Notes: generated from the sequence alone by a model not told the origin. A DNA stretch of 64,000 nt from Flavobacteriales bacterium (GCA_023251075.1 JAHEZM010000010.1:12784-76783); one strand, 5' to 3'; positions 8,443-41,693 are shown, numbered from the stretch's first letter. Made by a program: numbers and translations.

Positions 8443-8982
8443 TCAGGGTCTAATCTCAATCACGATTCCATTGTCCACCGCTTTCCATATTTCATCTATC
8501 TCCTCATTCGTAACCGCAATACAGCCATCGGTCCAATTGTGTAATAAATGCCCTTTACCCAATTTAGCCCATTTCTTCGGCAAACCATGAATCATAATAT
8601 CTCCGCCAGGGGAAACTCCTCGTTTTGCTGCCTGATCTTTATCGACTTGATTAGGATAAGAAATATGCAACGATAAATGATAACTACTTTTTGAATTTCT
8701 ATAATCAATGGTGTATTTTCCTTCCGGTGTTTTCTCATCACCCTCTTGTGTTTTATGTCCTTTGGGATGCTCACCTAATGAAATAGAATAGGTAGCAATT
8801 ATAGTATCTCTTCGCAACAAGTAAAGTTTACGCTTGCTTTTTTCCACCAGAATTTTATCTGCTTTACCAATGGGAGCTTTTCTTTTTTGACTCTCGGAAG
8901 TCACTACCTTTTCCTGTGTATTTCCACAGGCTAACGATAGCATTAAAAACAAAACCAACTTCATCATCCTCCCTTTTTTCAT
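8443..8982 (-). CDS. L,D-transpeptidase (YkuD-type) lipoprotein
   Basis: This family forms 3-3 peptidoglycan cross-links or attaches proteins to peptidoglycan. The chosen ATG at 8982 gives 179 residues; a GTG three codons upstream is less likely. The N-terminus has a short basic stretch, a hydrophobic core and a lipobox-like SLAC, so it should be an outer or inner membrane lipoprotein. A catalytic-domain histidine is in IHGLP and the nucleophile cysteine is in TDGCIAVTNEE, at the normal spacing of the YkuD fold. It starts 20 bp after the response regulator stop, so it is probably the last gene of the kinase-regulator operon and possibly its target. Confidence 0.88.
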   Translation of the reverse strand: MKKGRMMKLVLFLMLSLACGNTQEKVVTSESQKRKAPIGKADKILVEKSKRKLYLLRRDTIIATYSISLGEHPKGHKTQEGDEKTPEGKYTIDYRNSKSSYHLSLHISYPNQVDKDQAAKRGVSPGGDIMIHGLPKKWAKLGKGHLLHNWTDGCIAVTNEEIDEIWKAVDNGIVIEIRP

Positions 8983-9002
8983 GAAACGCACAGAAACAGA
9001 AA

Positions 9003-11803: not shown

Positions 11804-12541
11804 ATGAAATACTTTATTATTATCGCTGTTCTTACAGCACTTTCTTTCACCACCCTCAACTTTAAACAACAACAAAAAGGCTATCAACGGGTACGTGTGG
11901 CTTATAAAGAAAAAGAGGCCGTGATAACCACCGATCTTCAAAAGAAAAAGATTACAGTGGATAGTTTAAATATTTTGATCAACATCTATAAAGCAGAGAA
12001 ACAATTAGAGTTATGGGTAAAAAACAAAAAAGATACTTCCTATCAATTATTAAAATCCTATGCTATCTGTTCTATGTCGGGAGGTTTGGGTCCGAAAAGG
12101 AAACAAGGCGACTACCAGGTGCCTGAAGGGTTTTATCATATCAGTGTTTTTAATCCCTCTAGTTCTTATTATCTATCCATGGGAATTAATTATCCTAATT
12201 CTGCCGACAAAATTTTATGCTCTGACAATACCGGTGGAGATATTTTTATTCATGGAGATTGTTGTTCTATTGGTTGCGTTGCCATCACCGATAACCAGAT
12301 AAAAGAACTTTACTTATTCGCTTTGGAAGCTTTTAATAACAGACAAACAAAAATCCCTGTTTATATTTTTCCTACACGATTAAACAGCGAACGATACAAT
12401 ATATTGAATGCAGCCTATGCCGATAAAAAACCATTGATAACACTATGGAATCAGTTAAAAAAAGGCTACGATAAATTTCAACTTAACCATAAAGAATTAG
12501 AGTTTACCACCAATGCTCAGGGAGAATATATCTTTCACTAA
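11804..12541 (+). CDS. YafK-like L,D-transpeptidase family protein
   Basis: The 245-residue exported protein begins with a signal peptide (MKYFIIIAVLTALSF). The YkuD domain spans about residues 50-190. The signature IHGDCCSIGCVAITD carries the active-site His and Cys and is the YafK type. In Proteobacteria YafK family members act on protein-peptidoglycan links rather than only 3-3 cross-links, so a role in wall attachment or release is plausible but inferred. It is divergent from the histidine kinase operon, which itself ends in another L,D-transpeptidase, and is followed 88 bp later by a VWA lipoprotein. Confidence 0.85.
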   Translation: MKYFIIIAVLTALSFTTLNFKQQQKGYQRVRVAYKEKEAVITTDLQKKKITVDSLNILINIYKAEKQLELWVKNKKDTSYQLLKSYAICSMSGGLGPKRKQGDYQVPEGFYHISVFNPSSSYYLSMGINYPNSADKILCSDNTGGDIFIHGDCCSIGCVAITDNQIKELYLFALEAFNNRQTKIPVYIFPTRLNSERYNILNAAYADKKPLITLWNQLKKGYDKFQLNHKELEFTTNAQGEYIFH

Positions 12542-14570: not shown

Positions 14571-14858
14571 CTACTCCACCTTTGCGCTCAATCCTTTTTC
14601 CAATAGTGCTTCACACATTACACGCAGTTCATCAAACTCACCGCGTTTAACACCGCATCTACCTTTATAGTGAATTAAAATAGTACATTGTTCGGCTTGT
14701 AATTCATCGTGATCACAAATTTCAATCAAACATTTTATTACATGATCAAATGTATTAACATCATCGTTGTAAATGACTAAATCGTAGAGCGGAGTTTCCT
14801 CCACCAATACATCTGTTTCATATTGTTCTTTTGTTTGTCGGCCGAATAAAATTGACAT
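14571..14858 (-). CDS. clpS: ATP-dependent Clp protease adaptor ClpS
   Basis: ClpS delivers N-degron substrates to the ClpA/ClpC unfoldase. The 95-residue length is typical: a flexible N-terminal tail, then the core LYDLVIYNDDVNTFDHVIKC with the N-D-D and T-F-D-H substrate-pocket residues. HYKGRCGVKRGEFDEL replaces the commoner V-H-x-x-G segment and still aligns. It lies 19 bp downstream of the giant SPOR protein gene on the same strand but has a good promoter of its own whose -7 box is 4 nt before the ATG. Confidence 0.93.
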   Translation of the reverse strand: MSILFGRQTKEQYETDVLVEETPLYDLVIYNDDVNTFDHVIKCLIEICDHDELQAEQCTILIHYKGRCGVKRGEFDELRVMCEALLEKGLSAKVE

Positions 14859-14862
14859 GTAG

Positions 14863-14892
14863 CTAAAATACTAAAAATTACTTTTTCAGCAA
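14863..14892 (-). promoter_or_regulatory. clpS promoter (TTG-N19-TATTTTAG-N4-ATG)
   Basis: On the minus strand TTG (14892-14890), a 19-nt spacer and TATTTTAG (14870-14863) are followed by 4 nt and the clpS ATG. The box has A instead of the third T of TTTG. The -33 element lies inside the 3' end of the upstream gene. A leaderless clpS mRNA is predicted. Confidence 0.55.
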
Positions 14893-17800
14893 TTCCAATG
14901 CTTTATCTACACTTATTTTATCTTTTCCTTGGTAGGCTACCAAGAAAGCATCTTTCAATCCGCTAGCCGTTACCTGATCTTTTAATTTTCTTGCTTCTTC
15001 CACAGAAGTAAAATTACCTATCGTGAAGATGGTGATTCCGGCAGCATCTTTATAGTATTCCACTTTCGCAGGTAAATTAAAAAACTGAGTAGTGGTTTCT
15101 ACCGGAACTTCTTTGGCGAAAGCACCCACCTGAACTTTAAATACAATGGCTCCGGCAGCAGGAGTTGCAGCGTTGGTAGCTACATTAGTATTGGTAGTAG
15201 CCGCTAGATTGGCTTGCGCTTCGTTCACTGTAATTCTTTGTCCGTTTCTATATACCGTTACAAAAGCATCAGGAATTCCCGACGCATTAATTTCTGCTTT
15301 CTTCGCATTCGCCGAATTCAAATCATCGTATTTCCCTACCGAATAACGATACAATCCGTTGGCCGTCATTTCTTCATTCAAGGGCTGACGATCGTAAATA
15401 CTTCCTTTTTTAATTGGTCGCGATAACACTCCAATTTGTACAGTATAGAATAGTTTATCACTCGCTTTAATTGATTCACTGTTTGCTTTATTTTCACCAG
15501 CTTCAGCCGCCGTAACAGTGTTTGCAATATTCACCGGATTTTTAACTTCCACTTTATTGATGGTTTCTACCTCTCTCGCTTCAATCACCTGTAAAGCATT
15601 TTGTTGTTGCTGAGAAGCTTTGGCAGTTACCTGATCGGCCTGATCCATTGAAATACGTTTGCCATTGTAGTAAGGCACCACAAAGGCATCAGGATAACCC
15701 ATTTGTCGGATTTTATCTTTCGCAATTGCAGCCGCTTTAAATGACCTGAAAGTTCCTGCAGTATAACGAATAAAGCCCATAGGTGTTTTTTCACCAAACA
15801 AAGGAGAAATACCTTTAAACAAATCTTGCGGAATAGGATTTCTGAATGCTCCTACCTGAACGGTATATACTAATCCTTCTGGAAGCGGAGCATCTAAAGG
15901 AATTGGTTTATTCTCATTATACTCAGCGTTGCCTTTAATTTCAAACTGATCTTTTAACACAGCTGCTTGGGGCTCTTGTGAAGTAGAACCAAACAAAGGA
16001 GCATTGTTTACATCAATTTTAGTAACACCATTATTTGTGTTTTGGTTGGGGTTAGTAGTTACCGGATTGGTATTAGCTGGAGCAGTAGTTACAGGCACAG
16101 TAACTTTAGCAACTTCTTTTTGGGTGTTGTCTTTATAGTTCGCAAAAGTATCGGTAGTTGTGTTTTTATCGTTTGATTTATTTTTCACTTCAGCAGCCAA
16201 CTGAGGATTTAAAGACTCTGCAAATAACTTTGCTTCTTTTCTTTTCGCATCCGCTTCAGCTCTTGAATTATCAATCAACTGAGAACTTTGTAAAGCTTGC
16301 TCTTCTTTTTGATCAGCTAATTTTTTCAACTTTTCTGCTTCCGCTACATTTCCTTTCGCCAAAGCTTGTTCCGATTGTAACTGATAGCTTTTGGCATCTT
16401 TTTTCAACTGAGTATATTTCTCTACTTCCTTCGCAATTTCATTTTCCATTTTTTTAGCTTCCGCTAATAAATCGTTGTATTGCTTACTTGCAGCAGCTGG
16501 TGTAATGGTAGTGGTTGCTGTATTCGTTGCAGTAGCAGTATTAGCATTAACAGGATTAGTAACAACAACATTCGTAGTAGCCGGAATATCTTTAATAGCA
16601 ATCATTTGCTCTTGTTTTTTCTCAGCTTGTTTTTTCAACTCCATAGCATAATTTAAAGTTGAAGTTGCAAGTATAGGATCATTAATAGTTGCTGCTTCTT
16701 TTTCCTTTTCTTTCGATTTAGTTAAAAGGTCATTGACTTCTTTGTGTAATTTTTCAAATTCTGTTTTTTGCGCCGGACTTAAAGTTTCTTTTTTGATTGC
16801 ATCAATTTTCTTTTGGTTGTTTTCTATTAATAACTGATCGTTTTTCAACTCAGTATTGATGGCAACATTTTTTGCTTTAACAGAATCTTCTTTAGAAACT
16901 TTTACAGCGCTAGGAATCACATCAGGTTTACTTTCAATAATTTTCTTTTGTGTTTCGAGTGCCTTATTTTCTAATGCAAAAGCTTGATTGTTCAAATCTG
17001 TTTGTCCGGCAAACGATTTTGTTTTCTTCGCTTTCTCCCTAATTTCTTTCGCCTTATCAAAATCATCTTGCGCTGCTTTCAATTCTTTGTTTTGTTTATC
17101 CGTTAGCTTCAAACCATTTTTTTCAATCGCTTGCTGAACTTTCAACTTATTGGCTTTGTTTTCCGCTTCATTCAACTCGCCTTGTTTAACCATGGCTTGT
17201 TTCATTTTTAAGCGTCCGAATTTTGTTTTCTTATTGGCCTCTTTATTGAATTTTTTAATTTCCGATTTCTTCTTAGTATCACTGGCTTTCTTTTTTAATT
17301 CTTGCGCTTCTTCATAATACTTTGCTGCATCGGTTTGAAGTACATTAACTTCATTGGCTATGATTTGCACCGATTCATCTTTAGCGTAGGTATAATCAGG
17401 ATTTTGTTTTACGCCATAAGCGCTGGAAATCGTGGAAGCTAAATCGGCTTTAGGATTAGTAGATGTTTTTTTAGAAGTGTCAACGGCAGACACCATAGTA
17501 TTAGGATTTACAGCAACAGTAGTAGCACCTTGGTTTTTCAAAGCCAATAAATCAGCCTCTTTCATTCGTTTTAAAATCTCATGTTGCTTTGCAATAACTT
17601 CTGTTTCTTTTTGATAGGCTTCATTGATATTAGTCACTTTGGCTTTAAAATCTTTTGCTGTTTTATTTTTTTCACGAACCAGTAAAGCTTGTAACCATTT
17701 GTTTTCTGTTGAACTTAATTCTTGTGGATCAACGGTAAGTTTACCTTCATCAATAGCTTTATTAATTAACGATTGGTTGTAATCGTATTCTGCACGGTTG

Positions 17801-20800
17801 GCATAAAAATAATTTTCAGAAGCCACCAATTGTTTTTCTTGCGATTGCTTATCCAGCTCCTCTATTTCTTTATTCAATTTCTTTTTAGTGGCAACATCAT
17901 TTGTTTTTAAAGCTTCATTTCTTTTTTGCTCAGCAGAGGAATATAGGTTTAATGCTTCGTTTTCCGATTGGCGCGCATTGTCTCTGTTGGCGGTAACCAC
18001 CACAATAGAAGTGTATTCTACTTTGGTGGAAGTTTTAATACCAAAAGCAGTTAAAGCAGCTTGAGAAATTTGTTCCTCACTGGCTTTTTCTGCTTTGAAT
18101 TCAGGAGTAAAAACAGATTTATTTTTTGAAGTATCTACCGACACAACAGGGTTGCTTGTATTATTGGTTGAAATATTAGTTGTTGTTGGATTGGTTGCAG
18201 AATTTGTAGAATTGACCTGAGTGTTAGTTCCATTTGAAACTACAGTATTTGTATTTGTTGTAGTATTTGTATTATTAGGATTCACCTGAGCATTGGTTGT
18301 ATTCGTTGTTGTAACAGTATTGTTAGGATTTGTTGTATTTGGAGTTGTTGTTTCTACTATGGCAACAGTAGCAGTAGATTTAGTGTAGCTATCAATTTCA
18401 GCAATTGTTTTTGCATCTACTTTATTTGGAGCCGCAGCAATTTGATCATTGGTTAATTTTTCATTGTCCTTGATTTTATTGGCATTGCTCAAATGCAAAG
18501 TAATTTCTTCTTTTTTCTTTTCTTGTTGAACTTTAAGATCATCAATATTTTTTTGCGCTTGTGCTTTAGCATTAGGTGAAGTTGCCGAAGTCATTGCTTT
18601 TTCTAAAATCGTTTGTTCTTGCTTAAGCGAAGCGAGCATATCCATACTCATCTTTGCTTTTTTCAATTCATCGTTGTATTTCTCTGCCGGAGATTCCGCT
18701 TTACTAGCACTATCTATGATGGCAATTTTAGTATTAACTCCTTCCTTGGTGTTGGGCTGTTGTGCAACCGAATTTTGTAAATTCTTTTGTTGATCTTGTT
18801 GCTGTTTTAATTTCTCAGCTTTCTGTTGCTCTAACCTTTCTTTTTCCAAAGCAGCAACATCTTGTGTTTTAGCAGTATTCACTTGTTGTTGCAAATTACT
18901 TACCACCTGATTGTCGGCTACTACATCTCCTCCATCCGCTTTGATCGCAGCCAATTGTGCTTCAGCAATAGTTTTATCGGCCTGGCGTGCAGCCAATTCT
19001 TCCTTCAATTCATCTTGCTGTAATTTTAATTCATCTTTAATTTGCTGACTCTTGGTTCCGTCGATTTGTTTTTTCAAATTTTTCTGATCGTTCTCAATTG
19101 TTTTTATCGATTCATCCGTTTTTTGAATGGTTAATTCCATTTGTTTTATTTCGGCATCTTTCGATTGTTTAGATACCAATGCAATTTTCTCTAAACTCAC
19201 CTCGCCATTACTTTCATTTCTTTCCTGAATTTCATCTAATTTTTTTCTTTCGGCCTCTAGTTTTGTAATAGCTTGTGTGTTGTTTTTCGAATTCAAAGCC
19301 TCTTTAATTGCAGAAGCATAACTTTTTGCAGCATCAGCTTCTTCCTTTTTATTTTTTAATTCTTCTTTTTTCTGATCGGCATATAAATCGGTGATGGCTT
19401 CTTCTCTGGCCATTCTTCTCATACCTTTTACTTTCTCATCAATTTGGATTTGGATTTTCTTTTTCTCTTCAGCATTTTGAGTTTGGTTTAATTTTCTGGT
19501 GAGTTCAACCACATCTTGTTTTTCTTGCTCAATATCATCTTTTTTCAAATTAGAAACATACTCAGCCGCTTCGGCTTCATCTTTCAATTGATAATATTCT
19601 TTTTCCAAATCAGCTGCATCGTTGGCCGCTTCCTGAACCATTTCTTCATTGTTCATTTCCTTATTCTCCACACCAACAGGTGGAGTAACTATGGTATTAG
19701 TAGAATTAATTCCACTACTCACCACTGTTTGATTTTTAATTTCTGTTTTAGGAGGAATTGGCGCAGAGTTGAATCCAACATCTTTCACTGCATTTACATC
19801 GAGTGAAGCACTTTTTTTATACACTTCATTAAATGCAACTTCATCGATAGTGGCTTGCATCACATTGTTTAGCACCATTGTTTCACTAGGGGATTTTTTC
19901 AATTCAATTTTTTGCTTCACAATGGGTGCAATTTTTTTGGTAGGTAAACTCACAAACTCCTCATGAGGAGCATAACCTACCGCAACCACTTTAAACTGAT
20001 ATTTTTTATTGGATTGGAGCGTCATGGTATAAGCTCCAGATTTTTCGTTGGATTTATAAACACCCACTACAGCTCCCAATTCAACATCTGTAACAGTGAT
20101 GGTAGCATTCTTTTGCTTATTTCCTTCGGCAGTTAATTCACCTCTGATTATTGTGCTTTCGATATGCTCTTTATTCGGAACAATTTTGTAAACCGTAATT
20201 TCATCTTTTGCAGAACTTCTTGATGAAGCGAAATAGGCTACATTTTCATACATATCGGTAACATACAATAGATCATCGTCGGGAGAATTTACTGCAAACC
20301 CTAAATTCACGGGAGCACCCCATAACTTTGTATTAGTATCCAATTCACTTCGAAAAATATCATACCCCCCTAAACTATTATGACCTTTTGAAGCGAAATA
20401 TAAAATTCTACCATTGGGATGTAAGTAAGGATAATCCTCATCCAACGACGTGTTAATCATTGGACCAAGATTGATAGGTGTGCTCTTCGTTTTATCGGCA
20501 AAAAGAACCACTTTATAAATATCTCTTCCCGCTTCCCCTTTTTCACCATAGCTGGAAAAATAAACTTCTTCCACTGTTGGATTATGAACAATGATTGAGT
20601 TTTCGTTCAGTTTTTTATCGAGCTTGGTTTTGAAATCATCTGGTTTAACAATTATTTTTCTATCGAATTGTCCTAAATCATAAGCCCTGAAAAACTCGGC
20701 TTTAGAAGCTTCTTTTTTCGATAATACATGAATCAACTGCACATCTTGAATTACCGACTTACCTTCTTCGCACTGTTTTATCAATTGTGTTACATCATAT

Positions 20801-21210
20801 TCCTTACTCACCTTAACAGGAGCTTTTAATTTAAAATCGGTATAGGATTTAATTGCTTCTTTAAAAAAATAATTGAGCTGATACGATCTGCCCAAATAGT
20901 AAAAAGCCATAGGATCAACACCCGATTTGGTAACTGCGTATTTCAAATGTTTTAATGATTCCTCCTTATCAGCACTAGCATAAAGTAAACAGGTTCCGTA
21001 TTTGTAATTGTAATTAGCATCATCACTATGCAAACTCAATAATTGAGAATAAAGAGGCAGGGCTTCTGAATAATTCTTTTGTTCAAAAAGCTTTTCAGCT
21101 GTTTTGATCATATCGGCTTCCGATTTGGGATCGTCCATGAAAGAAAAAAGAAGGAAAAAGGTAGTCAAAAAAAGTACCGGCTGAGAAAACCTCCTCAACA
21201 ATTGAAACAT
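14878..21210 (-). CDS. Giant periplasmic TPR-PD40-coiled-coil protein with three C-terminal SPOR domains
   Basis: The ATG at 21210 (2110 residues) gives a proper signal peptide (MFQLLRRFSQPVLFLTTFFL); the TTG eight codons upstream adds nothing. Order: TPRs about 30-150; PD40 propeller strands about 200-365 (DYPYLHPNGRILYFASKG); a carboxypeptidase-regulatory-like fold about 350-430; charged coiled coils from about 520 to 1650, broken by Asn/Thr-rich linkers (largest about 950-1025); SPOR domains starting near 1780 (YTVQVGAF), 1921 (YTVQIGVL) and 2026 (VQVGAF). SPOR domains bind glycan strands stripped of peptides. The N-terminal half is built like the PorE-like protein at 38579, but the OmpA anchor is replaced. 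A long periplasmic link between peptidoglycan and the outer membrane or T9SS is inferred. Confidence 0.85.
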   Translation of the reverse strand: MFQLLRRFSQPVLFLTTFFLLFSFMDDPKSEADMIKTAEKLFEQKNYSEALPLYSQLLSLHSDDANYNYKYGTCLLYASADKEESLKHLKYAVTKSGVDPMAFYYLGRSYQLNYFFKEAIKSYTDFKLKAPVKVSKEYDVTQLIKQCEEGKSVIQDVQLIHVLSKKEASKAEFFRAYDLGQFDRKIIVKPDDFKTKLDKKLNENSIIVHNPTVEEVYFSSYGEKGEAGRDIYKVVLFADKTKSTPINLGPMINTSLDEDYPYLHPNGRILYFASKGHNSLGGYDIFRSELDTNTKLWGAPVNLGFAVNSPDDDLLYVTDMYENVAYFASSRSSAKDEITVYKIVPNKEHIESTIIRGELTAEGNKQKNATITVTDVELGAVVGVYKSNEKSGAYTMTLQSNKKYQFKVVAVGYAPHEEFVSLPTKKIAPIVKQKIELKKSPSETMVLNNVMQATIDEVAFNEVYKKSASLDVNAVKDVGFNSAPIPPKTEIKNQTVVSSGINSTNTIVTPPVGVENKEMNNEEMVQEAANDAADLEKEYYQLKDEAEAAEYVSNLKKDDIEQEKQDVVELTRKLNQTQNAEEKKKIQIQIDEKVKGMRRMAREEAITDLYADQKKEELKNKKEEADAAKSYASAIKEALNSKNNTQAITKLEAERKKLDEIQERNESNGEVSLEKIALVSKQSKDAEIKQMELTIQKTDESIKTIENDQKNLKKQIDGTKSQQIKDELKLQQDELKEELAARQADKTIAEAQLAAIKADGGDVVADNQVVSNLQQQVNTAKTQDVAALEKERLEQQKAEKLKQQQDQQKNLQNSVAQQPNTKEGVNTKIAIIDSASKAESPAEKYNDELKKAKMSMDMLASLKQEQTILEKAMTSATSPNAKAQAQKNIDDLKVQQEKKKEEITLHLSNANKIKDNEKLTNDQIAAAPNKVDAKTIAEIDSYTKSTATVAIVETTTPNTTNPNNTVTTTNTTNAQVNPNNTNTTTNTNTVVSNGTNTQVNSTNSATNPTTTNISTNNTSNPVVSVDTSKNKSVFTPEFKAEKASEEQISQAALTAFGIKTSTKVEYTSIVVVTANRDNARQSENEALNLYSSAEQKRNEALKTNDVATKKKLNKEIEELDKQSQEKQLVASENYFYANRAEYDYNQSLINKAIDEGKLTVDPQELSSTENKWLQALLVREKNKTAKDFKAKVTNINEAYQKETEVIAKQHEILKRMKEADLLALKNQGATTVAVNPNTMVSAVDTSKKTSTNPKADLASTISSAYGVKQNPDYTYAKDESVQIIANEVNVLQTDAAKYYEEAQELKKKASDTKKKSEIKKFNKEANKKTKFGRLKMKQAMVKQGELNEAENKANKLKVQQAIEKNGLKLTDKQNKELKAAQDDFDKAKEIREKAKKTKSFAGQTDLNNQAFALENKALETQKKIIESKPDVIPSAVKVSKEDSVKAKNVAINTELKNDQLLIENNQKKIDAIKKETLSPAQKTEFEKLHKEVNDLLTKSKEKEKEAATINDPILATSTLNYAMELKKQAEKKQEQMIAIKDIPATTNVVVTNPVNANTATATNTATTTITPAAASKQYNDLLAEAKKMENEIAKEVEKYTQLKKDAKSYQLQSEQALAKGNVAEAEKLKKLADQKEEQALQSSQLIDNSRAEADAKRKEAKLFAESLNPQLAAEVKNKSNDKNTTTDTFANYKDNTQKEVAKVTVPVTTAPANTNPVTTNPNQNTNNGVTKIDVNNAPLFGSTSQEPQAAVLKDQFEIKGNAEYNENKPIPLDAPLPEGLVYTVQVGAFRNPIPQDLFKGISPLFGEKTPMGFIRYTAGTFRSFKAAAIAKDKIRQMGYPDAFVVPYYNGKRISMDQADQVTAKASQQQQNALQVIEAREVETINKVEVKNPVNIANTVTAAEAGENKANSESIKASDKLFYTVQIGVLSRPIKKGSIYDRQPLNEEMTANGLYRYSVGKYDDLNSANAKKAEINASGIPDAFVTVYRNGQRITVNEAQANLAATTNTNVATNAATPAAGAIVFKVQVGAFAKEVPVETTTQFFNLPAKVEYYKDAAGITIFTIGNFTSVEEARKLKDQVTASGLKDAFLVAYQGKDKISVDKALELLKK

Positions 21211-21263
21211 TGATTTATGACCGTTCGAATTCAAATTCTGTTACGTCTTACGACCGATATAAA

Positions 21264-21325: not shown

Positions 21326-21964
21326 TTAAGTTCTCTTCTTAAAAAGGTAGGTTTTATTCTCATTACCTTGGATCAATCGGGTAATATTTTTTTGATGGGT
21401 AACCAACACCAGCACTGAAATCACACCTGAAAATACTTTTAACGATGGAGCAGGTACTTTAAAAACAAAAATTACCAATACAGGAAAAAGCAATCCTGCT
21501 AACATTGAGCCTAATGAAACATACTTGGTGGTAATTAAAATTACCAGGAAAAGCACTATCGAGATCAACGCCACTTCCCACATTAAAGCACAAACAATTC
21601 CTAACAAAGTAGCAATTCCTTTCCCTCCTCTAAATGCAGCAAATACAGGAAAAATATGACCTAACAAAGCTGATATACCCAAGGCCAACTCAAGATTTAC
21701 AAAAGAATTATTAGTAATAAGATGAGGATAAGCATTTTGCAAAAGAGCCAATTTAACAGCCACCAATCCTTTTAATACATCAATAGCAAAAACAGGAATC
21801 CCGGCTTTCTTGCCCAAAACCCTAAAAGTATTGGTAGCACCGGCATTACCAGATCCATACTCTCTAACATCAGTATTGAAAAAATACTTTCCAATCCAAA
21901 CCGCCGAAGGAATAGAACCCAACAAATACGCCGATAATAACAAAAGAATATTTACTAAAGTCAT
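21326..21964 (-). CDS. plsY: Glycerol-3-phosphate acyltransferase PlsY
   Basis: This inner-membrane enzyme transfers an acyl group from acyl-phosphate to glycerol 3-phosphate, the first step of phospholipid synthesis. The 212-residue product shows the three conserved loops: LLGSIPSAVWIGKYF, GSGNAGATNTFRVLGKKAG and FRGGKGIATLLG, with several membrane helices between them. Length is normal. It is monocistronic on the minus strand, between the giant SPOR gene and the SiaB/SiaC pair. Confidence 0.95.
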   Translation of the reverse strand: MTLVNILLLLSAYLLGSIPSAVWIGKYFFNTDVREYGSGNAGATNTFRVLGKKAGIPVFAIDVLKGLVAVKLALLQNAYPHLITNNSFVNLELALGISALLGHIFPVFAAFRGGKGIATLLGIVCALMWEVALISIVLFLVILITTKYVSLGSMLAGLLFPVLVIFVFKVPAPSLKVFSGVISVLVLVTHQKNITRLIQGNENKTYLFKKRT

Positions 21965-22109: not shown

Positions 22110-22490
22110 CTAGCTACCTACTTCAATCATTTTAAAGGGAACCTTAATAATGGCTTGATAATCTTCGCCAGCCTCTAACATATCCTCATCATCCTCTTCA
22201 TAGAACCAGTTGATTACAACATCTTTACCTGTTTTATGAATCGTCTCTAATTTTTTAAACAAATCCAAAATACATTTTGATGAACTTGTATTGAAATACT
22301 CCAATTGGATATTTACACTTGTTTTTTCTTTAGGCTCGTGAGAATACTTATCCAGTGATTCCACCACCGGCTTATAAAACTCGATCGAGTTCTCAGGAAT
22401 TGATCTTCCTTTTAACTCCAACAACCCTGCATCTGAATCAAACACTATAGTTGGTGTCTTTGATGTTCCTTCAATTGTAATCTTGTCCAT
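22110..22490 (-). CDS. SiaC-like regulatory phosphoprotein (DUF1987)
   Basis: The 126-residue STAS-like protein starts with MDKITIEGTSKTPTIVFD and has the block LEYFNTSSSKCILDLFKKLE, which matches SiaC/DUF1987. In Pseudomonas SiaC is phosphorylated by SiaB and dephosphorylated by SiaA, and the unphosphorylated form activates a diguanylate cyclase. The NTSSS segment is the likely phosphosite by analogy. It follows the SiaB-like kinase by 3 bp in one operon with a terminator. No diguanylate cyclase is in the window, so the output is unknown. Confidence 0.85.
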   Translation of the reverse strand: MDKITIEGTSKTPTIVFDSDAGLLELKGRSIPENSIEFYKPVVESLDKYSHEPKEKTSVNIQLEYFNTSSSKCILDLFKKLETIHKTGKDVVINWFYEEDDEDMLEAGEDYQAIIKVPFKMIEVGS

Positions 22491-22493
22491 AAT

Positions 22494-23045
22494 CTATTGT
22501 GAAATTTTAATATATAAACTGAAAAACGAAAACTCTTCATCTATTTGCAGAAACTCATAATTTAATTTCTGACCACTTTTTCTGGCGATATCTATAAAAC
22601 CTAAGCCACCACCACCTTTTTCTGAAAACCCTTCTAAACTCAACACATCCTGATAATGTTGTTTGAGTTCATCTTTATCCATACCGTTGATCTTATCTAT
22701 TCTGGCTTTCAAACCAGCTACCTTTTCACTTTTCACAAAATTGCCAGTCATTATGTTGTATTCAACCGCATTTTTGCTGATCATGAAAATGGCCTGTTTC
22801 TTATTTTCATCATTGCCGGTAGCAATTCTTATTTCGTCTCTGTGGTGATATAGATTTTGAAGACACTCTACCAAAACGTTATAAACCTTCTTTCTAACTT
22901 TTGGCTGTTCATCTAAATTTTCAAGCTTGGTTTCCATGATTTGTAACATGGAAGAAAGGAGTTCTGAGGTAATATCGCCCTTAAAAGAAAGCATGATATC
23001 GTTATGCTCCATTTTTTTGTAGAAACTGTAAATATCAAACTTCAT
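22494..23045 (-). CDS. SiaB-family protein kinase (DUF6272)
   Basis: This is a 183-residue GHKL-like kinase. The chosen ATG at 23045 (MKFDIYSFYKKMEHNDIMLS) fits the family; a GTG at 23072 would add nine residues but lies inside a palindrome in the leader. The block NVLVECLQNLYHH corresponds to the N-box and EKGGGGLGFIDIARKSG to the G-box of the ATP site. The partner substrate is the SiaC-like protein encoded 3 bp downstream. A SpoIIE-type phosphatase, the third part of SiaABC-type switches, is found only at the far right end of the window. Confidence 0.82.
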   Translation of the reverse strand: MKFDIYSFYKKMEHNDIMLSFKGDITSELLSSMLQIMETKLENLDEQPKVRKKVYNVLVECLQNLYHHRDEIRIATGNDENKKQAIFMISKNAVEYNIMTGNFVKSEKVAGLKARIDKINGMDKDELKQHYQDVLSLEGFSEKGGGGLGFIDIARKSGQKLNYEFLQIDEEFSFFSLYIKISQ

Positions 23046-23063
23046 CGAGGTCTTTTCTGAAAT

Positions 23064-23079
23064 ATTACTCACGAGTAAT
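23064..23079. promoter_or_regulatory. Operator-like palindrome in the SiaB leader
   Basis: ATTACTC (23064-23070) and GAGTAAT (23073-23079) form a perfect 7-bp inverted repeat with a 2-bp spacer. It lies between the promoter box and the ATG at 23045, where a repressor could bind or the RNA could fold. Confidence 0.4.
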
Positions 23080-32976: not shown

Positions 32977-35900
32977 ATGTTTATTTATTTGTATCGAAAA
33001 CTTTTCTTAATTCCATCACTTCTTCTCACGAGTTTATATGCCTGGGCACAACCCGTCGCAAGCTTCACTCCCGATAAATTAACAGGCTGCTCTCCGGTGA
33101 TGATTAATTTCACCAATAACTCTTCAAATGCTACTTCTTTTCATTGGGATTTCGGAAATGGAAATACCTCATTAGGAAATCAGGTTTCTGCTTTTTATGC
33201 TCAACCAGGAATTTACAAAGTATCGTTAATTGCAACACAAAACTCGCTGCATGATACTACTTCCGCTAATATTGTTGTATATGCTTCACCTACTGCTGGA
33301 TTAAGTTCAAGTGCAAATAACTTATGTGGTAAAAGCCCCATTCAATTTACCGATCAGTCTATTCCCAATTCAGCCAATATCACAGAGTGGTTTTGGAGCT
33401 TTGGAGATGGTCAATTCTCCTCTTCACAAAATCCATTACACAACTATGATGCGGAAGGGAAATTCACTGTTTATTTGCAGGTAAAAGATGGAAATAGTTG
33501 TACTGCCAGTATTACAAAAAATAATTTTATAGATGTAAATCAACCTAAAGCCGATTTTAGTACAGATACCATTATTTGTAAAATACCAACTACCCTTAAT
33601 TTCACCAATCAATCAACCGGTTTAAACCTTAGCTATCAATGGAATTTGGGAGAAGGTAGTACTTCTACTTTAAGCAATCCGCAAAAAACCTACTTCAATT
33701 ATGATACTATTCCCGTCACACTAATAGTTACCAGTGGAAATTCGGGCTGTGTTGATTCTATCAAACGAAATATTAGAATTGGAGAATATAAGGTTGATTA
33801 TAATTATACTGTAAACTGTATCTCAAAAAATCAATTCACTATTAATTTCACTAACACATCCAATCCAATAGGAGTTACATCAAAATGGGATTTTGGAGAT
33901 AATTCCACATCGAGTTCAATCAACACCTCGCACACCTACAATGCAACGGGCGCTTACACCATTTCGCTCACTTCTACTCTCAATAATTATTGCAAAAATA
34001 CTATGGTGAAAACGTATCAAAGTCCACATGCCGCTTTCACCTATTCTAATTTGCCCTGTAAAGCACCCTTCAAAGCTGATTTTACCAATACATCAACTGG
34101 TACAGCATTAACATACTTTTGGCAATTTCAGGGAGGACAAAGCTCTACCTTAGAAAATCCAAGCCATTTATTCTCTGCCCCACCAGCTTACCAAACAACA
34201 TCACTTAGAGTAACCAATACATGGGGATGTACAGATGCCGATACCACAGAATTATATTTCCCTATTCCATATGCAGATTTTTCTACCGATACGCCCTATA
34301 CAGGTTGTGCACCATTAACTATTAATTTTTATGACAAAAGCTCATCCTATTTGAATAATATCAAAAAAACAACCTGGGATTTTGGCGATCCTCTTAGTGG
34401 TAATAATCAATCTTTACTGAGTAATCCTAATCACGTTTATACAAACACAGGGAAATACGACATTACTTTAATTGCCGAAAATGATTCAGGATGTATTGAT
34501 ACTATTATCAGGACAGAATACATTAAAGTGGGAACAAAACCTTCTGTAGCACAATTCACCACCACCGCTGATACCGTATGTTACAACAGCACTTATGGTT
34601 TTAGCGACAACTCCACTTACACTGATCCTAGTGTTCAATCGAACTATTGGTGTTGGGGCTGGTATGAAAACAGCTCAAACCTATTGGGGATTAATGGAGA
34701 ATTACCAACAAGCTGCCCGGATTCAGGATTTTCCGATCCAAATCTGGATTACTCTTCTGTTCCTAATCCATTGAAAAAATTCAACAAGTATAATGCTTAC
34801 GACACTACTTTAGTAAATGGTACTTTATATATTGATAGTCCATCACCCGTTAGTGGATTGTATTATGTACATATGATTGTGGGTAATGACGGTTGCTATG
34901 CTGAAACCAAAAAACCGGTTTACATCAGAAACACAATGGCCATGCCCTCCTATATTTTTCCAAGTGGCGAATTTAATCTGAACAGTTGCAGCTCCCCTTA
35001 TTACTTTGGTTTGTTTAATGGGTCTTCGGGATATGATCAATTTAATTATTTAAAAGTCACCAATACTCAAACCAATCAAGTGATAGCCAATGTACCTGAT
35101 CATGATACCGCATATATTAATTTAACCAAAGCGGGTGTTTATAGAATTGATGTTGATGTATCTAACATAGCCGATCAATGCAATGATATGGCCTACAAAA
35201 CAATAGTGATAGACTCTTTTGTTTCAAATACAATCATGCCTAAAAAAGCGTGTATTAACGAATTGGTGAAAATCAAAGACAAATCAATTAGCAACTTTGG
35301 ACAAATTGTAAATTATTTTTATCTATTTGGAGATGGCAGTAGTGTTGGGCATAACATTGATAGCACTGCTCATGTTTATGAAGACACCGGAACATTCGTT
35401 ATTAAAACTATAGTAACCACGTTAATCACAAACAATACGGGAAATGGAATTTCTTATTGTGATCACGAACGATACGACACCATAAGAGTAGAAGGCATTC
35501 AGGCAGAAATATTTGCTGAAAACAAGAATTTTTGCCCGGGTGAAAATATTCAGTTTTCCGATTCATCCTTCAGTTCCAAATCTGTTACATACAGAAAATG
35601 GTATTTTGGCGACAATCAAACATCAACAGTACAAGATCCGGTTCACTCCTACAGCGACAAAGGAACTTATTCCGTGAGGTATTCTATTAAAAATGCAAGT
35701 TGTGCCGACTCGATCAATCTCACCAACTATATCAATGTAGTTAAGCCTATCGCTGATTTTAGTGCTGTGAAATCTATACTGTGCGAAGGAGACAGCACTA
35801 AGTTTTTAAATGCTTCATCACCTGATGGATTGATTTACCATTGGGATTTCGGACAAGGAGATACTGCAAATACAAAACATCCTAAAGCAACCTACCTAAC

Positions 35901-37518
35901 AGAAAATCTATATACTGTTGAATTAACAGTAATGGATTCAGATGGCTGTAAAGATACCGTTACAAAAGTCAATATGATCGATGTGGCTGCTTATCCTATT
36001 GTTGATTTTACAGTGAGTGATACCGTTTCAGATTGCGCACCCTATTTAGCAAGTTTTACTGATCAATCTACTAAAAATATTGACACTTGGGATTGGACTT
36101 TTGAAACCAATGCTACTTCAACCAATAAAAACCCTTTTCACAATTATACATTCCCCGGAAAATATGATGTTACTTTAAAAGTAACCAACACCAACCATTG
36201 CAGTTCAACACTTACTAAAAGCAATTACATAACAGTTCATGGTCCGCACGGAACCTATATAGCATCTCCTGATTCGGGATGTTCTCCACTTAATGTATTG
36301 TTTGATTTAGATTTCTATGAAACTAAATACCACACCTGGGATTTTGGAGATGGAAGCGTGGCAAACAATCTTTACGCTGATGTGCCCGACTCGATTTATC
36401 ATGTTTACAGCAACAAGGGAATTATTACTCCTTATGTTGTACTCCTCGACTCTAACAATTGCTCAAGTACTTTGAGTACTGGGAATATTTTCTTAGAAGA
36501 TCTCCATGCTAATTTTGGATTGAGTGATTCTTTACTTTGTTCTTTCAGTGCATTGAAAATTCACGATTCAACACAACATGTTTTTCCAATAACTTACAAT
36601 TGGTCGTTTGGCGACAATGAATCCAGCACCAACCAAAACCCTACGCATCTTTATACTTCAGAAAATTCTTTCAATGTTCAATTGATCGTTAAAAGTCCGA
36701 TGGGTTGTAGCGATACACTTAGCAAACAAATTCAGGTTTTTAAAGCTCCTTCATTGTTAATCGACACCATCACCGCATCATTTTGCGTTCCATTTAATGC
36801 CGAATTTAATGTGGTAAGTACCGACCCCAATGTTACTATCAATAAATTATTCTGGAAGTATAATGCCGATCAGCAAGACAGTACTTATGCAAAATTTTTA
36901 ATGACCATAGTGGGTTCACATAGTTTTCATTTAGTAGTGCAATATGCTGGCAATCTATGTACAATAGATTCTGTCATTACACTTCAAGCTCTTCTTGCCC
37001 CAACTGCACAATTTACATTTAGTCCGGAACACCCTTCCGTAAACACAATAATAACTTTAAACAATGAATCGCAAAACGCGAGTTCTTTCCTTTGGGATTA
37101 TAAAGACAATAGTACAGGAACAGAAATTAGTCCGGAACATACTTTCACCAAAAAAGGCAATTACGATGTTCAGTTAATTGCAGCTAATTCTGCCAATTGT
37201 TTCGATACAACTCACACATTAGTAAATATTGCAAAAGAAGATTTTGTAAAAGTTGTTTCTGGTTTTACCCCTAATGGAGATGGCATAAATGATTATGTTA
37301 AAATTTTAAATGGTGGTGAAGTAAGTTTAGTAGAATTCACTATTTACAACCGATGGGGACAACTTGTTTTCAGAAGCAATGATATTAATTCTTATTGGGA
37401 TGGAACCTTTAATGGCAGCCTGCAAGATGCGGGAACCTTCGTTTATTATGTTACTGCCAAAAACAACAAAACTCAACAAGTGTTAACCGAAAAAGGCAAT
37501 ATCACTTTACTGCGATGA
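32977..37518 (+). CDS. Giant PKD-repeat adhesin with type B T9SS C-terminal domain
   Basis: The 1513-residue exported protein has a signal peptide (MFIYLYRKLFLIPSLLLTSL, cleavage after AWAQ). About thirteen PKD-like modules follow, each with a WDFGDG-type core (for example FHWDFGNG near residue 50, WSFGDGQFSS near 142, HTWDFGDGSVA near 1126). The final 90 residues (VVSGFTPNGDGINDYVKI, IYNRWGQLVF, SYWDGTF) are the gliding-associated type B sorting domain. SprB-like PKD adhesins of this kind are exported by T9SS with a cognate PorP/SprF protein, which is encoded next with a 4-bp overlap. A surface adhesin role is inferred. Confidence 0.88.
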   Translation: MFIYLYRKLFLIPSLLLTSLYAWAQPVASFTPDKLTGCSPVMINFTNNSSNATSFHWDFGNGNTSLGNQVSAFYAQPGIYKVSLIATQNSLHDTTSANIVVYASPTAGLSSSANNLCGKSPIQFTDQSIPNSANITEWFWSFGDGQFSSSQNPLHNYDAEGKFTVYLQVKDGNSCTASITKNNFIDVNQPKADFSTDTIICKIPTTLNFTNQSTGLNLSYQWNLGEGSTSTLSNPQKTYFNYDTIPVTLIVTSGNSGCVDSIKRNIRIGEYKVDYNYTVNCISKNQFTINFTNTSNPIGVTSKWDFGDNSTSSSINTSHTYNATGAYTISLTSTLNNYCKNTMVKTYQSPHAAFTYSNLPCKAPFKADFTNTSTGTALTYFWQFQGGQSSTLENPSHLFSAPPAYQTTSLRVTNTWGCTDADTTELYFPIPYADFSTDTPYTGCAPLTINFYDKSSSYLNNIKKTTWDFGDPLSGNNQSLLSNPNHVYTNTGKYDITLIAENDSGCIDTIIRTEYIKVGTKPSVAQFTTTADTVCYNSTYGFSDNSTYTDPSVQSNYWCWGWYENSSNLLGINGELPTSCPDSGFSDPNLDYSSVPNPLKKFNKYNAYDTTLVNGTLYIDSPSPVSGLYYVHMIVGNDGCYAETKKPVYIRNTMAMPSYIFPSGEFNLNSCSSPYYFGLFNGSSGYDQFNYLKVTNTQTNQVIANVPDHDTAYINLTKAGVYRIDVDVSNIADQCNDMAYKTIVIDSFVSNTIMPKKACINELVKIKDKSISNFGQIVNYFYLFGDGSSVGHNIDSTAHVYEDTGTFVIKTIVTTLITNNTGNGISYCDHERYDTIRVEGIQAEIFAENKNFCPGENIQFSDSSFSSKSVTYRKWYFGDNQTSTVQDPVHSYSDKGTYSVRYSIKNASCADSINLTNYINVVKPIADFSAVKSILCEGDSTKFLNASSPDGLIYHWDFGQGDTANTKHPKATYLTENLYTVELTVMDSDGCKDTVTKVNMIDVAAYPIVDFTVSDTVSDCAPYLASFTDQSTKNIDTWDWTFETNATSTNKNPFHNYTFPGKYDVTLKVTNTNHCSSTLTKSNYITVHGPHGTYIASPDSGCSPLNVLFDLDFYETKYHTWDFGDGSVANNLYADVPDSIYHVYSNKGIITPYVVLLDSNNCSSTLSTGNIFLEDLHANFGLSDSLLCSFSALKIHDSTQHVFPITYNWSFGDNESSTNQNPTHLYTSENSFNVQLIVKSPMGCSDTLSKQIQVFKAPSLLIDTITASFCVPFNAEFNVVSTDPNVTINKLFWKYNADQQDSTYAKFLMTIVGSHSFHLVVQYAGNLCTIDSVITLQALLAPTAQFTFSPEHPSVNTIITLNNESQNASSFLWDYKDNSTGTEISPEHTFTKKGNYDVQLIAANSANCFDTTHTLVNIAKEDFVKVVSGFTPNGDGINDYVKILNGGEVSLVEFTIYNRWGQLVFRSNDINSYWDGTFNGSLQDAGTFVYYVTAKNNKTQQVLTEKGNITLLR

Positions 37519-38579
37519 GAAAAAAAGATTTGATAAATTGGAGATTCAATTTGAAAATGGACTATGCTTCCATGATCATATTGTTTTTCATTTTTCTATC
37601 TTCTTCTGTATTCTCTCAAGATGCTCAATTCACCCAATTCACCAATACTCCCATTTTATTAAACCCTGGTCAAACAGGCGATATAAATGGAGAATTCCGG
37701 GTAGGGTATTTATACCGCAATCAATGGAACTCTATCTCCTCCCCTTTTACTACTTCTCATTTTTTTACCGATAAAAAATTTTTAGAAGAACGATTGAAAG
37801 GAAATTTTGTGGGGGGTGGATTAAGCATGGTTTACGATAATACCGGTGGCGGAGCTTTAACTACTACACAAATTGGATTGAATACTTCTTATCATCATTA
37901 CCTCGATAGAAGTTTAAGTAGTAAAATTTATGGCGGAATTCAAATCAGTTTCTTTCAAAAAAGTTTAAATGCCAATCTCCTCGCCTTTGAAAATCAATTC
38001 AACTATAGCAATTCTGATTTTAGTAATACCAGCAATACCGATAATATCGTAAGCTCTAACATTGTTCGTCCCGACTTTACTTTGGGTGCAGGCTACTGGA
38101 AAAGTGAAAAAAAATATTACATCAATGCTGGTTTATCGGCCGCACATTTTACGCGCCCGAATTTATCTTTCACAGGTGGTAAAGATTTGTTAGCTACCAA
38201 ATGGACTCTTCATGCCGACGGGCAATACAACCTTTCAAAATTCCTATTTGTTACCCCTGCCCTTATGATTAAATTTCAAAATATGGCCACTCAATTTAAT
38301 TTTGGAGCCATGCTGAATTATGGATTTGGAAAAACATTCACCGATAATATTTATGTTAAAACCGGAATGTGGTTTCGTGTGGGTGATGCTGTTAATTTTG
38401 TGGTGGGATTGAATCATAACAATTGGCAATTCAATGTATCATATGATATCAACGCATCAAGTTTACATACTGCCAGTCACTACAACGGAGCCATAGAATT
38501 ATCCATTCTATACACACATAACTTATTCAACATTCAAAAAAACAAAACAAGAACTATTCCTTGTAAGCGATTATTTTAA
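37515..38579 (+). CDS. PorP/SprF-family type IX secretion membrane protein
   Basis: The 354-residue outer-membrane beta-barrel has a signal sequence ending FLSSSVFSQ and the family opening DAQFTQFTNTPILLNPGQTG followed by YRNQWNSI. PorP/SprF proteins are needed to export or anchor a specific type B adhesin. It overlaps the PKD adhesin by 4 bp (ATGA) and its stop overlaps the next start by 1 bp, so the adhesin and its dedicated partner are translationally coupled. The C-terminus (LYTHNLFNIQKNK...) is slightly unusual in continuing past the last strand. Confidence 0.9.
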   Translation: MRKKDLINWRFNLKMDYASMIILFFIFLSSSVFSQDAQFTQFTNTPILLNPGQTGDINGEFRVGYLYRNQWNSISSPFTTSHFFTDKKFLEERLKGNFVGGGLSMVYDNTGGGALTTTQIGLNTSYHHYLDRSLSSKIYGGIQISFFQKSLNANLLAFENQFNYSNSDFSNTSNTDNIVSSNIVRPDFTLGAGYWKSEKKYYINAGLSAAHFTRPNLSFTGGKDLLATKWTLHADGQYNLSKFLFVTPALMIKFQNMATQFNFGAMLNYGFGKTFTDNIYVKTGMWFRVGDAVNFVVGLNHNNWQFNVSYDINASSLHTASHYNGAIELSILYTHNLFNIQKNKTRTIPCKRLF

Positions 38580-40534
38580 TGAAACAATTATTACTTAAAT
38601 ATGGTTTACTCTTTTTATTCGCTTTTCAATACAGCGGAGTATTTTCGCAGGTAAGAAACACGAATACTAAACTGGCAGACCATACTTTGCTGGAAGGAAA
38701 TTATTACGAAGCCATTGAAATATATAAGGAGGAATTAGTAAAACGAAACGACAATGTTTATTTACTCATTCAGCTAGGAACTACTTACCAAAAAATTGGG
38801 GAATTTAAAGAAGCCCATGCTTGTTTTGAAAAAGCATTTTCTTTAAACAATCCTGAATTCCCTCTTTGTGAAATGTATTTGGCTCAATCATATAAAACAT
38901 TGGGAAATTATGAAAAAGCAAAAGAATTATTCGAACACTTTAAAAAGAATTACAAAGGCAACAACTCATCGTTCTATACCAGCAAAGCGAAAGATGAAAT
39001 TAAAAATTGTGACTTAGCTATCAAAGCCAAAACTTTACCCGATTATACTTTAAAACCATTAGATCACATTAACAAAAGGTATAGCGAATTGAGCCCTTTT
39101 TTCTATCAGGATTCTTTATTGCTTTTTTCTGCTCTGCCCTCTGATTCATTAATCAAAATTCCATTTGAACAATCCACACCCAAAAACAAAATATACTTCG
39201 CCAATTGGAAAGACAGTGTTTCAAAAATGAATTTGTTTCTCCCTCACTTTTTTACTGAAACAGCAGGTGATGTGAGCGACTTGGTGATATCTGGCGACGG
39301 ACAACGAATGTATTTCACTGAGTGTAAAATGAATTCTTCAGGAAGATTAATTTGTGAAATTTATGGTAGCAGTAGCATTAAAGGAGAATGGCAATTGCCC
39401 GTTAAATTGGGTCCGCTAGTAAACGAGGAATCAGGAGAATTTAACGCCACTCACCCATCTTTAAGTTATGATGCAAAAAACAAACAAGATATTTTGTATT
39501 TCGCTTCCGATCGACCGGGGGGAAATGGTGGTTATGATATTTGGTACGCTGAAGTAGGTAGTTCTTTCAACATCGATAAAGCTTACAACTTAGGAAGAAA
39601 GTTCAATTCAGCTGAAAATGAAATTACTCCTTTCATAGAAGCCAATTCAGGAAACTTATTTTATAGTTCTAACGGATTTGAAAACTACGGAGGTTACGAT
39701 ATTTTAATGGCTGCCGATAAAGGCAAGAGCTTTGAAAAACCAAAAAATATTGGCAAGCCTTTCAACACTAGTTACGATGAGTTTTACTATCGTACCAACA
39801 CCAAAAACTCAGGCGTATTTGTTTCTAACAGAGTTGATTTACAAAAGAAAAATTGTTGTGATGACATTTTTTATTTCAGTAAAGAGGAATACAAATATTA
39901 CAGTATTAAAGCGATTGAAAAAGTAAACGACACCTTAAACAAAGAACTAAGCGATGCTACTTTTTTCATTGTAAACAAAAAAGATTCTACTTATAAAGCA
40001 GGAAATACCTACAAAGGAAACATCAATGATTCTTTAGTGGTTGAAGTAAGCAAAAAAGGATACCTGAAAAAATCAACCACTGTTCAACTGAAATCTTTAA
40101 TGAACGACACTTCCCTCATCACAGTGCAATTGGAAGAAATTAAAGTGAACAAAGAATATCGATTGAATAACTTATACTTTGAATACAACAAAGCGGAACT
40201 CACCCCAGAATCACTTACAGAATTACAAAGCCTGCTTAAGTTTTTACAAGATAATCCTGAATTAATTATTGAGGTTGCAGCACACACCGACAATAAAGGT
40301 AATGCCGCTTACAACCTCAAACTATCGCAAGAAAGAGCTAAAAGCGTAGTAGATTATCTAGTCACTAATGGAGTTCCAGGCGAACGTTTAGTGGCTAAAG
40401 GTTATGGTATGAATCAACCTATTGCTTTCAATACCAATCCTGATGGAAGTGACAATCCGGAAGGCCGGCAACAAAACAGAAGAATTATTTTTAAAGTGGT
40501 AGGACAATTAAATACCGTGAACAATGAAAAATAA
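38579..40534 (+). CDS. PorE-like TPR-PD40-OmpA outer-membrane protein
   Basis: The 651-residue product has a signal peptide (about 1-23), TPRs about 30-140 (LLEGNYYEAIEIYKEELVKR), PD40 propeller strands about 220-430 (ILYFASDRPGGNGGYDIWYA, LFYSSNGFENYGGYDILMA), a carboxypeptidase-regulatory-like segment about 440-530, and an OmpA peptidoglycan-binding domain about 540-648 (AAHTDNKGNAAYNLKLSQER). This is the architecture of PorE, the T9SS component that ties the outer-membrane complex to peptidoglycan. Being within an adhesin-PorP operon it may be a dedicated paralogue rather than the core PorE. Confidence 0.88.
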   Translation: MKQLLLKYGLLFLFAFQYSGVFSQVRNTNTKLADHTLLEGNYYEAIEIYKEELVKRNDNVYLLIQLGTTYQKIGEFKEAHACFEKAFSLNNPEFPLCEMYLAQSYKTLGNYEKAKELFEHFKKNYKGNNSSFYTSKAKDEIKNCDLAIKAKTLPDYTLKPLDHINKRYSELSPFFYQDSLLLFSALPSDSLIKIPFEQSTPKNKIYFANWKDSVSKMNLFLPHFFTETAGDVSDLVISGDGQRMYFTECKMNSSGRLICEIYGSSSIKGEWQLPVKLGPLVNEESGEFNATHPSLSYDAKNKQDILYFASDRPGGNGGYDIWYAEVGSSFNIDKAYNLGRKFNSAENEITPFIEANSGNLFYSSNGFENYGGYDILMAADKGKSFEKPKNIGKPFNTSYDEFYYRTNTKNSGVFVSNRVDLQKKNCCDDIFYFSKEEYKYYSIKAIEKVNDTLNKELSDATFFIVNKKDSTYKAGNTYKGNINDSLVVEVSKKGYLKKSTTVQLKSLMNDTSLITVQLEEIKVNKEYRLNNLYFEYNKAELTPESLTELQSLLKFLQDNPELIIEVAAHTDNKGNAAYNLKLSQERAKSVVDYLVTNGVPGERLVAKGYGMNQPIAFNTNPDGSDNPEGRQQNRRIIFKVVGQLNTVNNEK

Positions 40535-41693
40535 AATATTCATCGTAACACTTTGTTTTCTTTCCTTGTGTGTACAGGCACAATGGAACAAAATTAATGT
40601 GAATACCACCAAAAGCCTAAACTCTATTGCTCAAATTGACGCCAATAATTTGATGGTAGTGGGCGATACAGGAACGTTAATTAAACTTACCAATAAAGGA
40701 CAAAGTTTTTCAACCATTACTTCTAGTATTACAAAAAACTTAAACGACGTTTGTTTTGTTAGTAGCTCTATTGGTTATGCCGTTGGAAATTCAGGTACCA
40801 TTATCAAAACCATCAATGGCGGAAGCACATGGAATCCACAAACATCTAATACTTCATCGGATTTAAATGGAGTTAAATTTTTAGATGCAAATAACGGATT
40901 AGCCGTAGGAAGCAATGGAACTATTCTGCGAACACAAAACGGAGGAAGTACCTGGACTGTCATCAGTCCTATTACCATTTATATTTTAAATAAGGTTACC
41001 TACATTTCCTCTACGGTTGCAATTGCCTGCGGTGGAAATGGGTTGTTATTAAAATCAACCAATGGAGGTAAAAACTGGACGATCAAAAGTACAGGAACTA
41101 CCAAGGTTATTTCGAATATGTACTATTATCCCGAGGAGCAAAAATTAATGGCTGTGGGCAACAAAGGTTTATTACTCACTTGCGATTCGGCATTAACAAC
41201 CTTTTCTAAAGACAGCATTTCATCTCAATGGCTTTTTGGTATTGCTAAAGAAGGATATACCGATAGTATTTTCGTAGTAGGTAAAAATGCAAACATTCTT
41301 TACTCACCTAATTGGGCGAAAGCCAATACAACAGAAACAGCAGATTTACATTCTGTAGCATTTATAAACGATACTATGGGAATTATTGTGGGGGCAAATG
41401 GCTTGGTTCTACGCACTATTACGGGAGGGGTTTGGAATGAAATAAGCGATATCAATTCTGTTTCTGTTCAAGTTTATCCTAATCCATCAAGCGATCAGTT
41501 TAATATTGAAAGTACAACGCTTGGTTCCAATTTTCAAGTGATGATCTATAGCGTCAACGGATCATTAGTATTTCAGCAGAATTGTGTTTCTGCTTCTATA
41601 ACAACCATTCATCATAACCTCAGTGATGGGTTGTATTTACTGCAGATCATTTCTGATACTTCACTTTACTCGCAATCAATCTTAATTCAATAG
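40524..41693 (+). CDS. YCF48-repeat protein with type A T9SS sorting domain
   Basis: The 389-residue exported protein has a signal peptide (MKNKIFIVTLCFLSLCVQAQ), then repeats of the YCF48/photosystem-assembly propeller type: GSTWNPQTSNT, GSTWTVISP, KNWTIKSTG, each with VGxxGTI(I/L) strands. Residues about 315-389 are a type A sorting domain (VQVYPNPSSDQFNIES ... LSDGLYLLQI). It overlaps the OmpA gene by 11 bp and ends the operon. The propeller is probably a surface-exposed binding unit; its ligand is unknown. Confidence 0.87.
   Translation: MKNKIFIVTLCFLSLCVQAQWNKINVNTTKSLNSIAQIDANNLMVVGDTGTLIKLTNKGQSFSTITSSITKNLNDVCFVSSSIGYAVGNSGTIIKTINGGSTWNPQTSNTSSDLNGVKFLDANNGLAVGSNGTILRTQNGGSTWTVISPITIYILNKVTYISSTVAIACGGNGLLLKSTNGGKNWTIKSTGTTKVISNMYYYPEEQKLMAVGNKGLLLTCDSALTTFSKDSISSQWLFGIAKEGYTDSIFVVGKNANILYSPNWAKANTTETADLHSVAFINDTMGIIVGANGLVLRTITGGVWNEISDINSVSVQVYPNPSSDQFNIESTTLGSNFQVMIYSVNGSLVFQQNCVSASITTIHHNLSDGLYLLQIISDTSLYSQSILIQ

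Follow-up and report, generated by a model that had tools for sequence, protein, structure and literature searches.

Introduction

In E. coli, wall synthesis and constriction of the outer membrane are coordinated by CpoB, a TPR protein (PMC4458516). Bacteroidetes are reported to have no recognizable tol-pal loci (PMC12204202), leaving the coordination of outer-membrane constriction with septal wall synthesis in Bacteroidota unclear. PorE, a T9SS outer-membrane lipoprotein of P. gingivalis, has been read as a fusion of CpoB, TolB and Pal with a possible role in tethering the outer membrane to peptidoglycan, and more such systems are expected (PMC12204202); its OmpA-like end binds the stem peptide (PMC7192894). 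A different mode of wall attachment is provided by SPOR domains. In most SPOR proteins, a linker joins the SPOR domain to a membrane anchor at the N-terminus; Q270, F274 and R309 of RlpA contact glycan, and Q251 and R285 of FtsN are required for septal targeting (PMC6895207).

Here we analyze a 64,000-nucleotide stretch of a Flavobacteriales bacterium genome (GCA_023251075.1 JAHEZM010000010.1:12784-76783; the window), which encodes a giant TPR-PD40 protein ending in three SPOR domains. Literature searches on SPOR with T9SS, Flavobacterium johnsoniae or Cytophaga yielded no paper on it. Widely conserved, and combining a PorE/Tol-like head with septum-type glycan-binding domains, the protein is a concrete candidate for division coordination.

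Results and discussion

Overall architecture

The gene is a single, uninterrupted open frame encoding 2,118 residues (Table 1). An earlier note, made from the sequence alone, had placed it at 14878-21210; the frame stands, and that start is an internal ATG, the frame itself reaching a TTG at 21234. The protein is organized into an export signal, a TPR domain, a PD40 propeller-like region, a CRD, ~1,150 residues of helical segments and three C-terminal SPOR domains. Pfam search returned PD40 (1.5e-6) and SPOR (1.1e-5, corresponding to SPOR3), both above cut-off, and no OmpA match; as the note had proposed, the three SPOR domains occupy the OmpA position. Confidence in this architecture, as in SPOR identity and conservation, is high.

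Table 1. Features of the giant gene and its immediate neighbors, in window coordinates
Feature	Residues	Position	Strand	Basis or remark
ClpS adaptor, 20 bp downstream of giant gene		14571..14858	-	conserved neighbor
Giant TPR-PD40-CRD-helical stalk-3xSPOR protein		14878..21234	-	TTG start; ATG at 21210
SPOR3; Q present, Arg position lost	2030-2118	14881..15147	-	Pfam; structural match to CwlC, RlpA SPOR
SPOR2; Q1933, R1963 invariant	1926-2011	15202..15459	-	AlphaFold; family profile
SPOR1; Q1793, F1797, R1823 invariant	1786-1872	15619..15879	-	AlphaFold; family profile
Second helical stalk segment	1078-1709	16108..18003	-	AlphaFold
Helical module copy 2	1278-1372	17119..17403	-	self-alignment
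Helical module copy 1	1070-1162	17749..18027	-	self-alignment z 8.4
N/T-rich flexible linker	955-1045	18100..18372	-	sequence composition
First helical stalk segment	529-899	18538..19650	-	AlphaFold
CRD (carboxypeptidase-regulatory-like) beta domain	376-460	19855..20109	-	AlphaFold; ortholog's weak CarboxypepD_reg match
PD40 propeller-like region	166-357	20164..20739	-	Pfam PD40; PorE profile; predicted strands
TPR domain	39-161	20752..21120	-	AlphaFold helices; TPR chains in PDB
N-terminal export signal, hydrophobic, without lipobox		21127..21210	-	sequence inspection
PlsY acyltransferase, 92 bp upstream of giant gene		21326..21964	-	conserved neighbor

AlphaFold predictions for the N-terminal (residues 36-900) and C-terminal (residues 1060-2118) halves recovered TPR, propeller-like, CRD and three SPOR folds. 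The N-terminal model displays eight TPR-type helices at residues 39-161 and a beta region extending to ~357, followed by a second beta domain at 376-460, where PorE has its CRD, and then by long helices. Foldseek with this half returned mostly TPR chains, none with E < 0.001, and CarboxypepD_reg matched one ortholog weakly, below cut-off. Residues 219-433, spanning the propeller and the CRD, match the NCBIfam PorE profile at 89.7 bits, well short of its cut-off of 600, which no protein of the window's genome passes. Together with the Pfam PD40 match, these folds bear out the PorE-like head plan proposed earlier.

Signals and lipoboxes were called by eye and by pattern. The giant protein's own signal is hydrophobic with no evident cleavage site, whereas most relatives carry a cleavable AxA-Q signal, ending in AQ, in agreement with the export claimed in the note. 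A lipobox is absent from the giant protein; of the 59 full-length proteins, just three have candidate matches. The missing AxA site would suit an FtsN/DamX-like divisome factor held by an uncleaved N-terminal inner-membrane anchor, with stalk and SPOR domains in the periplasm, and an anchor-linker-SPOR plan is usual among SPOR proteins (PMC6895207); the clear cleavable signal of most relatives and a TPR-propeller head directly after the signal, unlike in FtsN, make such a factor improbable. An exported variant with a PorE-like head, a long stalk and triple SPOR is supported.

The helical part had been described as about 1,100 residues of coiled coil. With short helices (10-60 residues each in the stalk), the linker and an internal duplication, it is not a single continuous coil, and jointed helical stalk is the more fitting description. 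The linker, in which N plus T make up 70% of residues 961-1020, divides the helical part in two, and the duplication is significant by self-alignment (1070-1162 versus 1278-1372, shuffle z 8.4). Relatives carry one to several copies of the duplicated module, and stalk length varies accordingly. About 790 stalk residues are predicted as helical. At a helix rise of 0.15 nm per residue, the predicted helices would exceed 100 nm end to end, so the stalk must double back or lie along the envelope instead of crossing the gap in a straight line.

Three SPOR domains with conserved glycan-contact residues

Three SPOR domains had been expected near residues 1780, 1921 and 2026, and a family profile locates them close by (Table 1). 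This HMM was built from the same SPOR domains and their relatives, so its scores alone are circular. In the C-terminal AlphaFold model, where helices run from 10 to 50 residues, all three appear as SPOR-type domains, mostly at pLDDT 85-95, with the beta-alpha-beta-beta-alpha-beta fold predicted for each. Structural search aligned SPOR3 with solved CwlC (Z 8.0, rmsd 2.6, 78/79 residues) and, at Z 7.5 (rmsd 2.6, 72/77 residues), with the RlpA SPOR in complex with denuded glycan; DamX and DedD came next. SPOR1 and SPOR2 were barely covered by this search; their support comes from the predicted fold, the conserved residues and the match of a SPOR1-2 profile to the CwlC SPOR through SPOR1 (E 0.005).

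Gln and Arg residues equivalent to RlpA Q270/R309 and FtsN Q251/R285 are present in SPOR1 and SPOR2 of all full-length relatives (59/59), as is, in SPOR1, the Phe equivalent to RlpA F274 (F1797; 59/59). SPOR3 keeps the Gln and lacks Arg at the conserved position, which reads TIFTIG in the giant protein. We infer that the protein likely binds peptidoglycan via its SPOR domains; judged by residues and predicted fold, septal binding is plausible. The C-terminal SPOR fold and contact residues are shared with FtsN, DamX, DedD, RlpA and CwlC, from which the giant protein differs by its three SPOR domains, very long helical stalk and TPR-propeller head. No catalytic domain was detected in it.

Three SPOR domains and a stalk varying by module duplication could also belong to a general peptidoglycan-bound scaffold that is distributed along the whole wall, outside the septum, and spaces or stiffens the envelope, with the SPOR domains giving avidity. 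A PorG-like barrel of the same genome with many SPOR-like modules suggests that SPOR serves this lineage as an anchor more generally. Such a role is nonetheless unlikely in view of SPOR1 and SPOR2, where the Gln and Arg needed for FtsN septal targeting are invariant. The barrel protein itself (PorG/DUF6089-like, 1,196 aa; L038:5164-8754, minus strand, contig C13) contains DxDxDG repeats of calcium type, and profile matches near 382, 484, 790, 881, 1001 and 1109 mark at least six SPOR-like modules. Its last three SPOR modules align with those of the giant protein, but a predicted outer-membrane beta barrel and the calcium-type repeats stand in place of the TPR-PD40 head. SPOR seems to replace OmpA as the wall anchor in this protein too.

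Family distribution and conservation

The giant protein family is conserved and spread over many families of Bacteroidota. A scan of a genome collection found 80 loci, all Bacteroidota by record titles and with one named cultured strain, Cryomorpha ignava. At least two SPOR domains were found in 59 of 62 uncut frames (window included), at about 1,700-2,450 aa; the remaining three are short and lie in apparently broken copies. Such full-length relatives across many independent assemblies, together with the conserved residues, leave almost no room for a chance open frame or an assembly error. Substitution patterns point the same way: in both the head and SPOR1, non-synonymous changes are few against heavily changed synonymous sites. 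Between the window and the nearest relative, SPOR1 is 94% identical, yet differs at 60% of its synonymous sites; identity in the linker is 38%.

Run on 396 class genomes, the SPOR1-2 profile matched 206 at 1e-15 and at least 147, counted among the matches listed, at the strong-detection level of 2.7e-38 or better, nearly all in frames of 1,700-2,600 aa. A clear copy is missing from most sampled class genomes, indicating that the protein is not a universal division factor. The earlier note had considered absence from close relatives with a full T9SS as a point against its reading; all seven sampled same-family genomes (≥90% complete) carry the protein. The requested breadth of the architecture across Bacteroidota, suggested in the same note, emerged as a conserved family with recurring neighbors.

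Relationship to PorE and the T9SS

The note had also raised a T9SS-side assembly as one end of the link. The giant protein shares with PorE and CHU_0125 a TPR, propeller and CRD in the same order, with the PorE profile match falling on the head; SprA is present in the window's genome and T9SS cargo lies within the window. On these grounds the head could sit on T9SS outer-membrane parts and the SPOR domains fix the machine to peptidoglycan. We consider this tether very unlikely. SprA occurs in 384 of the 396 class genomes, against 147 with a strong giant protein match; T9SS genes are not among the conserved neighbors in the relatives' loci examined; and the lipobox is lacking. In a tree of heads, the giants form a clade with shorter forms from the same locus (support 97/95), and seven PorE-like proteins of the window's genome fall outside it; a 475-aa form, on a long branch, is less surely placed. 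The T9SS interpretation is not supported. Further differences from PorE are the missing OmpA domain, the stalk, the triple SPOR and a shorter propeller region (~190 residues versus ~270 in PorE; PMC7192894).

Co-occurrence with SprA was rejected as T9SS evidence, SprA being near-universal in the class, so that joint presence says little. A core T9SS component was likewise rejected, as the giant protein is missing from most T9SS genomes. The window's genome encodes ~10 PorE-like proteins, the best PorE candidate lying at another locus (contig C8); with so many in one genome, the PD40/TPR plan does not imply T9SS, and a PorE-like head alone does not mark a protein as T9SS. The gene for the protein at 38579, used for comparison, lies next to one for PorP/SprF and one for a T9SS cargo, whereas the giant gene does not. 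The likely setting of the 38579 protein is a cassette at 32977-41693 (plus strand) comprising a PKD-rich type B T9SS cargo, a PorP/SprF barrel, a PorE-like TPR-PD40-OmpA protein and a sorting-domain protein.

A proposed Tol-Pal-like scaffold

Our main reading, to which we give a probability of roughly 0.5, is that the giant protein is an exported periplasmic scaffold linking an envelope partner to septal or remodeled peptidoglycan, with a coordinating role like that of Tol-Pal/CpoB. The head (TPR, TolB/PorE-like propeller and CRD) would dock on an envelope partner, probably on the outer-membrane side, and the long jointed stalk would act as a spacer that gives reach. The three SPOR domains would bind glycan strands from which amidases have removed the peptides, strands enriched at the division septum, thereby joining the partner to septal or newly processed wall. 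The stem-peptide-binding OmpA end of PorE would thus be swapped for domains that bind the stem-free glycan left by septal amidases. Odds for the septal role itself are about even.

CpoB in E. coli is the closest functional model. As in Tol-Pal (CpoB, TolB, Pal), a CpoB-type TPR and a TolB-type PD40 region are present, here in one chain, and a peptidoglycan-binding end takes the place of Pal, an analogy drawn for PorE (PMC12204202). The giant protein differs in being a single polypeptide and in its SPOR domains, which bind bare glycan; the TolB_N domain (PF04052) has no match in the window's genome. Several observations weigh against the scaffold reading: none of the neighbors PlsY, ClpS and M48 is a division gene, the stalk far exceeds the length that the outer-membrane-to-peptidoglycan gap requires, the conserved Arg is lost from SPOR3, and the shorter proteins encoded at this locus carry at most one SPOR-like end, a degenerate one. 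More speculatively, and with a low likelihood in our estimation, the family might be a septum-dedicated replacement of Tol-Pal in a large part of Bacteroidota, through which outer-membrane constriction would follow septal wall processing.

Genomic neighborhood

The locus recurs across relatives. PlsY lies upstream of the giant gene in 30 of 76 loci with sufficient flank, and a ~1,500-aa secreted protein lies upstream, adjoining the gene or past PlsY, in 37 of the 76. Of 57 loci with flank downstream, 35 have ClpS and 34 have an M48 peptidase after the gene, and NfeD and FloA follow in some families. The flotillin FloA was rejected as an obligate partner, since it is absent from the window's genome and from others with the giant protein. 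The secreted protein was set aside as a specific partner; it occurs in 93 of 109 class genomes, much more widely than the giant family. This protein (L049:11776-16284, minus strand, and L052:637-5205, plus strand) has no Pfam or NCBIfam match, sits between PrmA and PlsY in many relatives and is encoded on contig C34 in the window's genome.

In other families, the same locus beside NfeD/FloA holds a 475-aa TPR-PD40 protein without SPOR, forms of 1,160-1,183 aa, or a 1,579-aa form whose one SPOR-like end is degenerate. The 475-aa protein (L153:3154-4581, minus strand), which also lacks the long stalk, is possibly a reduced or ancestral form. Directly upstream of PlsY, the window encodes SiaC and SiaB family regulators (22110-23072, minus strand), as does the nearest relative. 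Two YkuD-family L,D-transpeptidase-like proteins also lie near the giant gene, at 8443-8991 (minus strand) and 11804-12541 (plus strand); the latter has a further match to DpaA/YafK, an enzyme whose target is the diaminopimelate of peptidoglycan.
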